From positions 1 through 64,000 of the forward strand of contig JAISWI010000019.1 of assembly GCA_031270865.1 (NCBI GenBank): a stretch of DNA of 64,000 nucleotides, written 5' to 3'. The notes under the pieces were generated by a model. It was not told the DNA's origin. It ran no database searches and worked only from the letters and a program-made list of their open reading frames with translations. Every line of letters starts with the position of its first letter. Within the stretch, counting starts at the first letter, position 1. The translations under genes and the position numbers were made by a program. This DNA is from Oscillospiraceae bacterium (GTDB lineage Bacteria > Bacillota > Clostridia > Christensenellales > Aristaeellaceae). Below are positions 10,096 through 58,900 of the stretch, in pieces.

Positions 10096-12151
<2,056 letters not shown>

Positions 12152-12170
12152 CGCCGCAGTGGCGGAGGGG

Positions 12171-23579: not shown

Positions 23580-23690
23580 CGTATCCATCCCCTCGCGGTG
23601 GGATTCGCCCCGTCCCTTCTGTCGCTGAGGGTGACCTTGCCTCGCCCCCTGCCGCTCTCAGGCGACAGAGGGGCGAGGTTTGCCAAACTG
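23580..23690. repeat. Short inverted repeats before the STAND gene
   Basis: CTGTCGCTGAG and CTCAGGCGACAG form arms around a stretch of G/C-rich sequence, followed by AGAGGGGCGAGG. The same GGCAGAGG-GGCGAGGC motif occurs at 25489-25545 after the gene and at 32255-32275, so it belongs to a dispersed family. Confidence 0.6.
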
Positions 23691-25488: not shown

Positions 25489-25600
25489 GGAAGAACAGTC
25501 CCCCCCTGTCGCTTCGGCGGCAGAGGGGGCGAGGCCAAGCCAGCGACGTGGGGACTGTTACCAAATCCCACAACAGAGGAATCCTCTCCCAACCACACAT
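25489..25600. repeat. Short inverted repeats after the STAND gene
   Basis: Contains CCCCCTGTCGC...GCGGCAGAGGGGG arms and a wider CAGTCCCC...GGGGACTG pair (about 25498-25558). It resembles the repeat at 23580-23690 on the other side. The rest of 25601-25716 shows nothing beyond the ribosome binding site of the next gene. Confidence 0.55.
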
Positions 25601-32016: not shown

Positions 32017-32316
32017 ATCCGCCCCTTCTGCCCCTGCGGTGGATCAGGGCGCGTCCCCTCTGTCACCGCGACGGCATCTCCCCCTAAGGGGGCGGCAAGG
32101 GGGATTGGAACGCTGGGGCTATCTTTCCTTTGCCGCCCCTTTAGGGAGGACTGGGACGGGAGGTGTTATCTCCCCCTTGCCACCCCTTTAGGGAGGACTG
32201 GAACGGGGGGTGTTATCTCCCCCTGCCGCCTCTTTAGGGGGAGATGTCACCTCAGCGGCAGAGGGGCGAAGCCTAACCCGCCACGTCCACATAATATTTA
32301 CTAGGAGGACTACGTT
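32017..32316. repeat. Repeat-filled spacer before the aldolase gene (family B element)
   Basis: The left arm near 32073 (GGCATCTCCCCCTAAGGGGG) and the right arm ending near 32248 (TTTAGGGGGAGATG) form an inverted repeat like the one at 11951-12151. Between them a ~46-base unit containing TTTAGGGAGGACTG and GGTGTTATCTCC is repeated twice. The end (CAGCGGCAGAGGGGCG) matches the repeats at 12171-12429 and 25489-25545. The last ~40 bases hold the AGGAGG of the next gene. Confidence 0.75.
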
Positions 32317-46223: not shown

Positions 46224-47753
46224 ATGGCGTCGCTGACAATCCATGACGGGAACACCGTCCGTTCGGTAACATTCACTCCACCGGAGCGGCTGCTCGACCT
46301 GCTGCGGGGCAGCGGCGTTCCGGTTAACGCGCCGTGCGGCGGCATGGCGCGATGCAACCAATGCAAGGTAAGCGTCACGGGCGCGCTGTCCGAGCCGGAC
46401 GCCGCTGAAACCGCGCTGATCCCGCCGGGCGGCGGTATACGCTTCGCTTGCCGGGCGGCCGCGCTGGGCGACGTCGATGTTTTCACGAACAGTATGGCGG
46501 CGCGGTCCGTGTCTATCCAGATAGACGGGGCGACGCCGCCGTTCACGGTGTCGAACGGGCTTAGCGGGGTTGGGGCGGCTGTGGATATCGGCACGACGAC
46601 GATAGCCGCTTACCTGTACGCGATGGATGATGGCGGGCGGCTGGGCGCGGCGTCCGCCCTGAACCCGCAGGGCGCGTTCGGCGCGGACGTGATTTCGCGC
46701 GTACAGGCCTCGATGGATGGCCACGCCGACGCGCTGGCCACTCTCGTATGCGGGTGTATAACCCAATTGGTTGAATCGCTGCTAGCCAGACATTCATTAA
46801 ATCATAACGACTTAACCCGTATAGTCCTGACGGGCAACACCGCCATGCTCACGCTGTTATGCGCGCTGCCGACTAAACCGCTCAGCGCGATGCCGTTCCG
46901 CGCGGAGCACCTGTTCGGCGAGTTCCGCCGCCCGGACGCGCTGAGGCTGCCCGTATCGGCGCAGGTGTACCTGCCGCGATGCGTTGGCGCGTACGTTGGC
47001 GCGGACATCACTACCGCGATGCTGGCGGGCGGGCTTATCACGGACGGGCGCGTCCATCGCGGTAAGCCGTTGATGCTGGCGGATATCGGCACGAATGGCG
47101 AGATCGCGCTGGCGGCTGGCGGCGCGCTGTCATGCTGCGCGACGGCGGCGGGTCCTGCCTTCGAGGGAGCGGGCATATCCTGCGGGATGCTGGCCGAACC
47201 TGGCGCGATCGACCGGGTGGATTGGCTGGACGGGCGTTTCCAGTACTCGACGATAGGCGGCGAGCCCGCTCGCGGGATCTGCGGTACGGGACTGGTGGAT
47301 ACCGTGGCCGCGATGCTGGATGCCGGAATGCTGGACGAATCCGGCTACCTTGACGGCGGGGACTTCACGTTCCCGGGCACAAGCGTCGCCGTCACGCAGA
47401 AGGACGCGCGGGCGCTGCAGCTGGCCAAGGCCGCCATCCGCGCGGGGATGCTGACGCTGCTGAGCGAGACGGGGCTGGCGGTCGGGGACGTGGACGCGCT
47501 CGTCGTGGCGGGAGGGTTCGGCAGCAAGATTCGCGTAAGTTCGGCGGAGCGGATTGGTTTGCTGCCCGGCGGCTTCGCGGCGAAGGCCCGCGCGATTGGC
47601 AACGGCGCGGGCATGGGCGCGGCCATGGCGCTGCTGAACGACGGCATTCGTGTTCAGAGCGAAGGCGTGGTTGGCGCGGCGCGGGTGGTCGAGTTGTCGA
47701 CGAACCCGGTATTTATGGATGAATATGTTGAGGGAATGATGTTTGAGCCATGA
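46224..47753 (+). CDS. ASKHA-family corrinoid protein reductive activator with [2Fe-2S] domain
   Basis: 509 residues. The ATG at MASLTIHDG has TGGAGG 8 bases upstream. Residues 1-90 form a ferredoxin-like [2Fe-2S] domain (Cys in APCGGMARCNQCKV and RFACRA). The rest is the DUF4445 ASKHA ATPase: VDIGTTTIAAYL, VLTGNTAMLTLL, GADITTAMLAGG, LADIGTNGEIAL, GPAFEGAGISCGM. Such RACo/RamA-like proteins reduce inactive Co(II) corrinoids using ATP. No methyltransferase or corrinoid protein is in the window. The 3' end overlaps the convergent alr by 41 bases. Confidence 0.88.
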   Translation: MASLTIHDGNTVRSVTFTPPERLLDLLRGSGVPVNAPCGGMARCNQCKVSVTGALSEPDAAETALIPPGGGIRFACRAAALGDVDVFTNSMAARSVSIQIDGATPPFTVSNGLSGVGAAVDIGTTTIAAYLYAMDDGGRLGAASALNPQGAFGADVISRVQASMDGHADALATLVCGCITQLVESLLARHSLNHNDLTRIVLTGNTAMLTLLCALPTKPLSAMPFRAEHLFGEFRRPDALRLPVSAQVYLPRCVGAYVGADITTAMLAGGLITDGRVHRGKPLMLADIGTNGEIALAAGGALSCCATAAGPAFEGAGISCGMLAEPGAIDRVDWLDGRFQYSTIGGEPARGICGTGLVDTVAAMLDAGMLDESGYLDGGDFTFPGTSVAVTQKDARALQLAKAAIRAGMLTLLSETGLAVGDVDALVVAGGFGSKIRVSSAERIGLLPGGFAAKARAIGNGAGMGAAMALLNDGIRVQSEGVVGAARVVELSTNPVFMDEYVEGMMFEP

Positions 47754-48936
47754 AACCATCCAAAAGAGGGTCGTCTACGCTGACGATTTCGCCATTTTGA
47801 TAGTACGCCCGTGGGACGCGCCGTCCGGTCATGGCCAGCGGTTCGTTGCGGTTGCTGCCGATCCACGCGGCGAACTCCTCTACGGGGATAACGTCCTCGC
47901 CCTCGCCGCCTAGCGCGGTCACGATATCGCCGACCTGGATACCCGGAACGTCGGTGACATCCAGCATGGATTGGTCCATGCACGGCAGTCCGGCGTAACG
48001 GACGCGAACGCCACGGACCGACGCCTGGCCGCGTTCGCGCAGGCGGCGCGGCAGTCCATCCGCGTAGCCCAGCGGGATTGCCGCGATGATGGTCTCGCGC
48101 GTGGCGCGGTATGTCCCGTCGTAGCCCACGCCCTCGCCGGGTTGGATGGTACGCGTCGAGACGATTCTTGCGCAAAGCCGCATAACCTTTCGCGGGATGA
48201 ACGGAGCGTCGGCTATAACATTTCCATATAGTATCGCGCCGACGCGGACCATGCCCAGCCGCCACTTAGGATACCGGAACGCGGCGATGCTGTCGGCGGC
48301 GTGGAGGCATGGACCGCGTCCCGATGAATCGGCAAGAGGTTGGGCGACGCTGAAGAATCTGTCCATCTGCGCCCGATCGTGGTCCTCATCGATCAGCGCA
48401 AGGTGGGTGAACACGCCGTCGACGGCAAGGCCCGGCATGGACAATATGCCGGGCAGGTCGGCCCGCGCCTCGTCGATCGTCATGCCCAGCCGATGGAACC
48501 CGGTATCAATCTTCACATGGGCGTGGGCGGTCAAGCCGCGCGACATGGCCGTCTCGCCCAGCCGCCGCGCCTGTCCGACATCGCAGACCGTGAGCGCTAT
48601 ACCGTTAACAATCGCGGCGGCCAGCAGGTCGTCGGGCGCGTAACCCATCGACCACAGCGCGGCCGGACCCCTTGTCTCCCCTTTAGGGGAGACGGCGCCG
48701 AAGACGCCGAGGTGTTTCAAGTATAGCGCCTCGCGGACGCTGGCGGTCGCGATCACGTCGGCGCCGGCGTCCCAGAGCGCGCGGGCGCATTCGACCATAC
48801 CATGGCCGTACGCGTCGGCCTTGACGACAGCGGCTATCCTCACGCCGGGACCGACCGCCGCGCGGACGGATTCAAGGTTGAGCCGCAGCGCGTCCAGGTT
48901 GATCTCCTGCCACGCGCCGCCGAGCGGACTTGCCAT
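47713..48936 (-). CDS. alr: Alanine racemase
   Basis: 407 residues, PLP-dependent L/D-alanine interconversion for peptidoglycan. PLP-lysine motif VVKADAYGHG near residue 39, HVKIDTGFHRLG, VRVGAILYG, and catalytic Tyr in GVGYDGTYRA. Between KHLGV and the usual lead-in to LWSMGYAPDD is an extra FGAVSPKGETRG encoded by the palindrome at 48674-48693, a copy of the family B repeat in frame. TATGGAGG precedes the ATG. Confidence 0.93.
   Translation of the reverse strand: MASPLGGAWQEINLDALRLNLESVRAAVGPGVRIAAVVKADAYGHGMVECARALWDAGADVIATASVREALYLKHLGVFGAVSPKGETRGPAALWSMGYAPDDLLAAAIVNGIALTVCDVGQARRLGETAMSRGLTAHAHVKIDTGFHRLGMTIDEARADLPGILSMPGLAVDGVFTHLALIDEDHDRAQMDRFFSVAQPLADSSGRGPCLHAADSIAAFRYPKWRLGMVRVGAILYGNVIADAPFIPRKVMRLCARIVSTRTIQPGEGVGYDGTYRATRETIIAAIPLGYADGLPRRLRERGQASVRGVRVRYAGLPCMDQSMLDVTDVPGIQVGDIVTALGGEGEDVIPVEEFAAWIGSNRNEPLAMTGRRVPRAYYQNGEIVSVDDPLLDGFMAQTSFPQHIHP
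48667..48696. repeat. Family B repeat inside the alr coding region
   Basis: GTCTCCCCTTTAGGGGAGAC (48674-48693) is a perfect 20-base palindrome, followed on the coding strand by AAGGGGTCCGG. It matches the CTCCCCTAAAGGGG-AAGGGG core of the intergenic elements at 11951 and 32073. It keeps the reading frame. Confidence 0.75.
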
Positions 48937-50831: not shown

Positions 50832-51122
50832 TCAGCGTAGACGGAGGATCGCGTCTTCACTCAACCCGGTGACAGCCGCAATCAGACTCATATCGCAACC
50901 TAGATCCCGCATGCGCAGGACTGTCTCCAAGCGGTTTTCCTCCGCGCCTTCCCGCTTCCCCTCCTGAATCCCTTCCCGCTTTCCCTCCTGAATCCCTTCC
51001 TGAATCCCTTCCCGCTTCCCCTTCTGAATCCCTTCCTGAATCCCTTCCCGCTTCCCTTCCTGCTTCCAGTAGGTTCCTAAAGCCCGTCCGTACTCTTCGA
51101 GACTGAACTCCTCACTTAACAT
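50832..51122 (-). CDS. Free-standing copy of the Rpn C-terminal small protein
   Basis: 96 residues from the ATG at 51122, nearly identical to the C-terminus of the Rpn gene at 51163-52158: MLSEEFSLEEYGRALGTYWKQ, an EGKREGIQ repeat tract, then AEENRLETVLRMRDLGCDMSLIAAVTGLSEDAILRLR. GGAGGTGATC (51126-51135) gives a near-complete match to the 16S anti-Shine-Dalgarno with 8 bases from GGAGG to ATG. An upstream TTG could add nine residues. In E. coli, small proteins from internal starts of rpn genes block the full Rpn toxin. By analogy this copy may be an extra antitoxin. Confidence 0.7.
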   Translation of the reverse strand: MLSEEFSLEEYGRALGTYWKQEGKREGIQEGIQKGKREGIQEGIQEGKREGIQEGKREGAEENRLETVLRMRDLGCDMSLIAAVTGLSEDAILRLR

Positions 51123-51162
51123 ACCGATCACCTCCGCAGCGCGCTCCAACTAACCCCTTCAA

Positions 51163-55988: not shown

Positions 55989-58900
55989 TATGTCGCTTTG
56001 CGGATCGCGACGGTCGCGGCCTCGCCGTTTATGTCCCAGCCGCGAACGACCGCGCCGGACATATCAACGCTGTCGGCCAGCGATACGCCCAGCGTGGCGG
56101 AGAGGATCATGTCGCGGCGGTTCGCGATGGCGGCGGCCAGCGTCCGCGTCGTCGTTACGCCGATATCTACGCGGTCGGTCACGTCGAAGCCCGCGTCCTT
56201 GCGCGTCTGCTGGATTTTGCTGACCAGTTCGCGCGCCAGGCCTTCCTCAATCAGTTCGGGCGTTAGCGTCGTGTCCAGCGCGACGGTTACGCCGCCGTCG
56301 GATTCAGCGGCGAAGCCCTCCGCCCGCGCAGGCTCGATGATCAGATCCTCACGCGCCAGCTCGATAGCCTGGCCGTTCACGTCGAGGCGAAGCGGTTCGC
56401 CCCTGTCCAGGGTTTGCGCTACGGATAGTCCGTCCGCTTCGGACAACGCCTGCCGGATCGCGCCCAGCAGCTTGCCGTAGCGCGGGCCGAGCGTCCGAAG
56501 CTGCGGCTTCACGCGATAACTGAGGAACGCCCGCGCGTCGCTGACAAACTCGATGCGCTTGGCGTTTAGCTCCTCCATGGCCAGCGCCGCGAAGTCATCC
56601 GGCAGCGTCAACCCCTGCGCGAATACCGCGGCGACGGGCTGGCGTATCTTTATGTTCGCGGCGGACCGGCACGCGCGGCCAAGCTCCACCGTGTGGATCA
56701 GCGCGGCCATGTCGGATTCCAACCGCGGGTCGATGAGCGACACGTCCGCCTCCGGGTAATCGCACAGGTGGACCGACTCGGGCGCGTCCGCGTCCTGCGA
56801 GCGCGTCAGGTTCTGGTAGAGCGACTCGGCCAGGAACGGCGTGAACGGCGCGATTAGCTTCGCAAGCGTGGCCAGCGTGGTGTAGAGCGTCGCGAACGCG
56901 GCCTCCTTGCCCTGCGGCATGCCTTTCGCCCAGAACCTCTCGCGGCTGCGGCGTACATACCAGTTCGACAATTCATCCACAAAATCGGCGATGGCGCGGG
57001 CGGCCTCCGTGACGCGCGTCTGCTCCAGCCAGCGGTCAACCTTTTGGATTAAACCGTTAAGCCGCGAGAGCAGCCAGCGGTCCAGCGTCGTCAGCGACGA
57101 GGGATCAAGCCCCGCGCCTGGCCGGTACCCGTCCACATTCGCGTACAGAATGAAGAACGCGTAAGTATTCCACAGCGTGCCCATGAACTTGCGCTGGGTC
57201 TCGGCGCACATCTCGCGCGAGAAGCGGCTGGGCAGCCACGGCGCGCCGTTAACATAGAAGTACCAGCGTACCGCGTCCGCGCCTAGGTCGCTTAGGATAT
57301 CCTCCGGCGCGATCACGTTGCCCAGGTGCTTAGACATCTTGCGCCCCTGGTCGTCCTGCACGAGCCCGAGCACCAGGCACGTCCTGAACGGCGAGCAGTC
57401 AAACAGCAGCGTCGATATCGCCAGCAGCGTGTAGAACCAACCGCGCGTCTGGTCGACGGCCTCGCTGATGAAGTCCGCCGGGAAGCGCGACTCGAACAAT
57501 TCCTTATTCTCGAACGGGTAATGCCACTGCGCGAACGGCATCGACCCGCTGTCATACCAGCAGTCGATGACCTCCTTGACGCGATGGGCTACCCCTCCGC
57601 ACTGGGGGCATTTGACCGTCACCGCGTCGATGTACGGGCGGTGCAGCTCGATGTCTTCGGGAACGGGCTGGCCGTCGATATCGCCGAGTTCGCGCAACTC
57701 GGCTATCGAGCCTATCACGTGGATGTGACCGTTAGGGCAGCGCCAGATGGGTAGCGGTGTGCCCCAATAGCGTTCGCGGGATAATCCCCAGTCGATCACG
57801 TTTTCGATAAAGTTGCCCATGCGCCCATCCCTGATGTTGTCGGGCAGCCAGTTGACCGAGCGGTTTGCGCGGGAGAGGCTGTCGCGAACGGCGGTCATCC
57901 GGATGAACCACGTCGGGCGCGAGTAGTACAGCAGCGGCGTATCGCATCGCCAGCAGAACGGGTAGTCGTGGCTGTACGGTATCACGCTGAACAGCAGGCC
58001 GCGCTCCTTCAAATCCTCTATGATCTTCGGGTCGGCGTCCTTGACGAACAGTCCGGCGAACGGCGCGTCGCTGGTCATGCGCCCGCGCGTATCTACGCGC
58101 TGCAGGAGCGGCAGGTCGTACAACCGGCCTACGCGGGCGTCGTCCTCGCCGAACGACGGCGCGATGTGGACCACCCCGGTCCCGTCGTCCAGCGTGACAT
58201 AGTTATCGCACACGACGTACCAGGCCTTACCGCCGACGTCCGCGCCGTACAGCGGGACGTAGCGCGCGCCCTCCAGTTCCTTTCCCGCGCGTACGCTTTC
58301 GATAACATAATCATCCTTGAGCACTCGGGGCAGCAGGGCCTCGGCCATCAGCAGCCGTTCGCCCTTCCATGAAACCACCGCGTAGCTCTCGTCTGGCGCG
58401 ACGCACAGCGCGAGGTTGCTGGGCAGCGTCCAAGGGGTTGTCGTCCAGGCCAGTATCGACAGCGACGGGTCGTCAATCGTCCTGAACCGGACCATGACGG
58501 AGGTATCGGTCACGGCCTTGTAGCCCTGCGCGACCTCGTGGCTCGAAAGCGCGGTTCCGCAGCGCGGGCAGTACGGCACGGACTTCGCGCCTTCGTAGAG
58601 TAGCCCCTTATCGTGGATCGCCTTGAGCGACCACCACTCCGACTCGATATAATTATTCTCGTACGTAACGTACGGGTCGTCCATATCCACCCAGAACGCG
58701 ACCGTATCGCTCATCGCCCGCCATTCGCTCAGGTACGTCCACACGGACCGCTTGCATTCCTTGATGAACGGTTCGCAGCCGTAGGCCTCGATCTGGTCCT
58801 TGCCGTCCAGCTTCAGGCGCTTCTCGACCTCCAGCTCGACGGGCAGGCCGTGGGTATCCCATCCGGCCTTGCGCATCACGTCGAAGCCCTTCATCGTGCG

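Follow-up and report, generated by a model that had tools for sequence, protein, structure and literature searches.

An in-frame copy of a two-hairpin palindromic repeat in an alanine racemase gene of an Oscillospiraceae bacterium

The alanine racemase gene and its palindrome

The window analysed here is a stretch of 64,000 nucleotides from an Oscillospiraceae genome. Its minus strand carries an alr-type alanine racemase gene of 407 codons (47713-48936), recognised by the Pfam domains Ala_racemase_N and Ala_racemase_C and by a fold match. Inside this gene lies the perfect 20-base palindrome of the original prediction, an inverted repeat at 48674-48693 (GTCTCCCCTTTAGGGGAGAC) with 8-bp arms and a 4-base loop, TTTA (GTCTCCCC-TTTA-GGGGAGAC). 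On the coding strand of alr it reads GTCTCCCC-TAAA-GGGGAGAC and is translated in frame as V-S-P-K-G-E-T.

An alignment of 26 other copies, with the alr copy excluded, formed the basis of a covariance model of the repeat unit. The model matches the alr copy over its full length (48663-48712, minus strand, model positions 1-52 of 52, 46.9 bits, E 6.5e-12 for the window), and the homologous unit (~46-50 bp) exceeds the palindrome, which is its hairpin 2, in size. Hairpin 1 (CGGCGT-CTTCG-GCGCCG) is placed at 48693-48709 on the minus strand by the unit alignment and the covariance model. The closest sister copy found, at 12119-12168, is identical to the alr copy at 37/46 bases without gaps (pairwise score 52), other parts of alr scoring 25 or less. 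Moreover, the 5′ 12 nt of the alr unit resemble the repeat to a degree matched by only 99 of 10186 coding 12-mers (~99% are worse). These sequence comparisons suggest that the whole repeat unit is present in alr, with an uncertain 5′ boundary.

With up to 3 mismatches allowed, the 18-base core matches the window 6 times where chance predicts 0.03, and the genome 58 times forward and 60 times in reverse, compared with 2 and 0 matches of the reversed control. Since these numbers lie far above expectation and control, the motif is a repeat rather than a chance palindrome, a candidate which the match to the covariance model also rules out. The core is therefore common to alr and to intergenic elements, as had been proposed, and on its sequence the alr insert is a member of the repeat family.

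Structure and distribution of the repeat family

The consensus, CCTCTGTCGC(C)TG(AG)GGCGACATCTCCCCTAAAGGGGCGACAAGAGG, comprises hairpin 1, followed directly by hairpin 2 (the palindrome), with a short outer helix enclosing both. This structure is paired in 91.6% of cells versus 37-61% when slid, with weak covariation (a score as good arises in 53 of 500 shuffles). The outer 4-bp helix is formed in 89% of cells, and the ends, CCTCTGTCGC and GCGACAAGAGG, are imperfect inverted repeats. On each strand, two of the three frames run through the unit core without a stop codon. Matches of the repeat unit in Rfam were all below threshold. Two further stretches of the window, 23635-23671 and 25503-25534, hold hairpin-1-like repeats without hairpin 2 (e.g. 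CCCCTGTCGCTTCGGCGGCAGAGGGGGCGAGG), apparently a related repeat with a single hairpin.

In the window, the covariance model identifies an intergenic (or gene-edge) copy at 11932-11983 (plus strand, 67.2 bits) and intergenic copies at 12006-12055 (plus, 61.3 bits), 12119-12168 (minus, 67.8 bits, also found by pairwise alignment) and 32057-32108 (plus, 43.3 bits), with a copy inverted relative to the last at 32217-32264 (minus, 32.1 bits). The genome as a whole contains 142 copies or more, counted among 150 scored candidates. Among its congeners, G002 has at least 150 copies, and G001 and G003 have 26 each. Across a sample of 60 genomes of the family, more than one match outside the genus was found in only two, G069 and G065; these belong to other genera, and their 19 and 7 weaker unit matches are possible distant relatives of the repeat.

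Copies often occur in inverted pairs: among the 116 found in 308 kb of this genome, 83 have a copy of opposite orientation within 300 bp. Many of the copies in G002 are nearly identical to one another, as recent spread would predict. At its loci L146-L185 many copies score identically with the model and have flanks in common (GGGGAACCC... and ...GGTTGTCGGTTACG). They stand partly in tandem, and the pattern looks as though a larger composite repeat had recently multiplied. Three contigs of the genome under study (C49, C50 and C73; loci L044, L046 and L049) start within 40 bases of repeat units, which makes it probable that the repeat interrupts the assembly.

Intragenic copies were surveyed in 308 kb (the window and stretches around copies) and in a further 388 kb picked irrespective of copies. 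Coding sequence makes up approximately 75% of the stretches surveyed, yet 105 of 116 copies lie outside ORFs. Judged by codon-usage scores, the alr copy is the only one of the 116 inspected to have coding signal on both flanks (+19 and +39 bits); the second-best copy reaches +2.3 bits, with 3 codons upstream of it. Six copies fall within stop-to-stop ORFs with coding signal, namely the alr copy and five near the 5′ end of the ORF, which probably sit upstream of the gene start. Long ORFs spanning copies at L106, L052, L145, L118, L128 and L111, whose length suggested coding sequence, were rejected, either because they score as non-coding or because the copy is upstream of the likely start. Weak model hits within genes (window position 57191, and position 12323 of L189) lack the core sequence and were taken as chance. 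None of the 49 copies in the congeners is coding. Taken together, the search for other coding copies called for by the original prediction leaves alr as the sole case and the exception, with intragenic copies strongly depleted, although further ones may exist outside the surveyed stretches. The ~115 extragenic sister copies, set against alr, provide a measure of the strength of purging (1/116 versus ~75% coding).

The insertion and the integrity of the enzyme

Thirty alanine racemases were aligned, that of this genome and those of 29 relatives, including three congeners. The nearest relatives are MAGs labelled Oscillospiraceae; from the isolate codes of the congeners we presume a termite-gut origin, and the source bacterium is probably a termite-gut organism as well. 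A 12-residue insertion, FGAVSPKGETRG (36 nt, ~48667-48702, minus strand), is exclusive to this genome, in agreement with the predicted gain of about 12 residues. At the insert site this genome reads EALYLKHLGVFGAVSPKGETRGPAALWSMGY, and the proteins of the congeners (77, 73 and 71% identity) have EALCLRRVLSDAPLWSMGY, EALYLRRALPLAPLWAMGY and EALYLRKTLPDAPLWAMGY, respectively. The evidence for the insertion comes from one MAG, and no conspecific strain lacking the insert was seen.

The original prediction had set one refuting test, that relatives carry the same residues without the palindromic DNA. The segment is present in 0/29 of them, which favours insertion. That it is instead native to this alanine racemase lineage, its likeness to the repeat arising by chance, is thus effectively refuted and extremely improbable: the linker does vary somewhat in length and sequence among distant homologues, but neither its absence from all relatives nor a full-length match to the repeat model, with 37/46 identity to a genomic copy, is compatible with such an origin. 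As the unit is ~50 nt long and the net gain only 36 nt, the insertion may have removed or replaced about 10-14 nt of the native linker.

The reading frame is kept, as predicted, with neither stop nor frameshift across the 407 codons. Both Pfam domains are retained (Ala_racemase_N at 12-238, E 3e-50; Ala_racemase_C, E 2e-36), as are all columns invariant among 33 homologues. The dN/dS of alr against the congeners is ~0.2, which indicates purifying selection. Unique substitutions number 23 in this genome and 14 in G001, a difference that is not clearly significant and gives no strong acceleration. The genome has a second, intact and more canonical alr (contig C2, 57006-58106, L145), and the congeners likewise have two alr-like genes; the second copy may have relaxed constraint on the insert-bearing one. 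This second gene, the MAG assembly and the slightly longer branch would fit a decaying pseudogene, or an assembly artefact in the case of the insert. Such readings are very unlikely given the uninterrupted frame, the intact domains and invariant residues, the low dN/dS and the location of the insert away from the ends of its 135-kb contig.

The AlphaFold2 model of the protein (mean pLDDT 89.8) superimposes on the solved alanine racemase 4y2w with TM-scores of 0.88/0.92. Mapping onto the predicted model, another check proposed at the outset, places the insert in a predicted loop between helix 67-75 (helix 2) and strand 93-96 (strand 3), with a pLDDT of ~59 for block 81-90. In an alpha/beta barrel, the loops leading from helix to strand and the active site occupy opposite faces. 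The position therefore appears permissive, and the loop, as modelled, probably tolerates the ~12 added residues. Most likely the insert has either no effect on the enzyme or a slight cost.

Retention of the insert because it is useful, its mRNA hairpins or added peptide tuning the expression or activity of this paralogue, is improbable. Both hairpins have indeed been preserved, and in alr hairpin 2 pairs perfectly although most copies have one mismatch. However, the fully paired arm (GGGGAGAC variants) also occurs in some intergenic copies, the insert is not conserved across species and the predicted loop is of low confidence. A broader proposal, in which an uncatalogued two-hairpin family of a termite-gut Oscillospiraceae genus has spread without a RAYT and has been exapted in Alr as a structured peptide or RNA segment, must be regarded as highly improbable. 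If true, exaptation of the insert would give this Alr paralogue a new property.

Known repeats and the origin of the alr copy

In-frame insertion of repeats is less confined than the original prediction held in calling it rare beyond Rickettsia. It is known for Rickettsia palindromic elements (RPEs), Wolbachia palindromic elements, ERIC, short Correia elements and both GTAG and CGTC REPs (PMC2229807, PMC10969869, PMC3733652), and with in-frame repeat insertions documented in several bacteria the present case introduces no new principle. It is nevertheless a clean instance of a conserved enzyme gaining residues from a small palindromic repeat in a bacterium that belongs neither to Rickettsiales nor to Proteobacteria. 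Text searches of open-access papers gave no report of such an insertion in Bacillota, which is weak evidence.

RPEs and the Wolbachia elements occur in frame in conserved genes, where they are tolerated, and also between genes (PMC2229807, PMC10969869). The alr repeat resembles them in being palindromic, in frame in a conserved enzyme gene and absent from relatives. RPEs, however, are described as 105-150 bp long and nearly half intragenic (PMC2229807, PMC10969869), whereas the unit described here is ~46-50 bp, its host belongs to an Oscillospiraceae genus rather than Rickettsia, and gene insertion is not recurrent (1/116 copies here, 0/49 in congeners). GTAG REPs are short palindromic units, extragenic, arranged in inverted pairs and occasionally intragenic (PMC3733652). 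Our repeat shares the short palindromic units, the extragenic location and the many inverted pairs (83/116), but its consensus (CCTCTGTCGC..GGCGACATCTCCCCTAAAGGGGCGACAAGAGG) lacks a terminal unpaired GTAG, no Y1 transposase was found in the four genomes, and each unit has two hairpins.

CGTC REPs (including dRS3, RPE-4 and RPE-6) form inverted pairs, have no dedicated transposase and are known to have intragenic copies (PMC3733652). They are defined by an unpaired CGTC (or TGTC/CCTC), a stem of 8-9 bp starting with A/T pairs, a 4-5 nt loop and a CCA tail, and the phyla reported for them exclude Bacillota (PMC3733652). The stem of 7-8 bp, the 4-base loop and the inverted pairs are similar here, but the consensus has no CGTC tag outside the stem, no A/T first stem pairs and no CCA tail. 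ERIC and Correia (NEMIS) elements are non-autonomous, structured MITEs, mostly intergenic and with some in-frame fusions (PMC2229807), a description which also suits our repeat. Its sequence is unrelated to theirs, and it shows no recognised counterpart of their 100-155 bp length, terminal TA and target duplication. With its many dispersed palindromic copies, extragenic and often in inverted pairs, it is REP-like in general, and fits best as a new REP/MITE-like family of which one intragenic member is known.

The alr segment thus, in all probability, records the insertion of a non-autonomous REP/MITE-like repeat, a rare event that kept the frame and was tolerated. A genus-wide two-hairpin unit (~46-50 bp) would have entered the gene in an ancestor of this species, at the linker that joins helix 2 to strand 3; the gene would have become 36 bp longer overall and probably lost ~10-14 bp of native linker. 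With the frame kept and the loop facing away from the active site, the protein would still fold, and we infer that the allele survived through this harmless frame and position, insertions elsewhere in genes being purged. The predicted insertion of a mobile repeat stands as regards family membership and absence from relatives; the unit is larger than the palindrome that was proposed, and mobility as a non-autonomous element is deduced from the dispersal of the copies. Movement may have relied on a transposase acting in trans or on template-driven copying.

A profile search for Y1_Tnp (PF01797; RAYT) gave hits in none of four genomes, the control genomes being positive; as the four are MAGs of 78-92% completeness, this negative is not absolute. 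The RAYT route is therefore unsupported, and a RAYT-driven REP was rejected as a candidate. The same result would suit a passive mechanism, in which the copy reached alr by recombination or by replication template switching from another copy, such as the unit 36 kb away. The geometry is also replacement-like (a 50-nt unit but a net +36 nt), and no target-site duplication was recognised by eye at the alr copy. Passive transfer is possible but rather unlikely, as template switching requires local homology, of which the relatives show none at the insert site, and the wide dispersal together with the near-identical copies of G002 suggests active spreading.

Two further observations concern other loci. 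At L106 (contig C59, 10500-16800), repeat units lie between duplicated glycosyltransferase-like genes, and may mark or promote local duplication. In the window, a short ORF on the minus strand (50832-51149) contains repeats of GIQEGKREGIQEG, which we take to resemble the tails of Rpn/PD-(D/E)XK family proteins.
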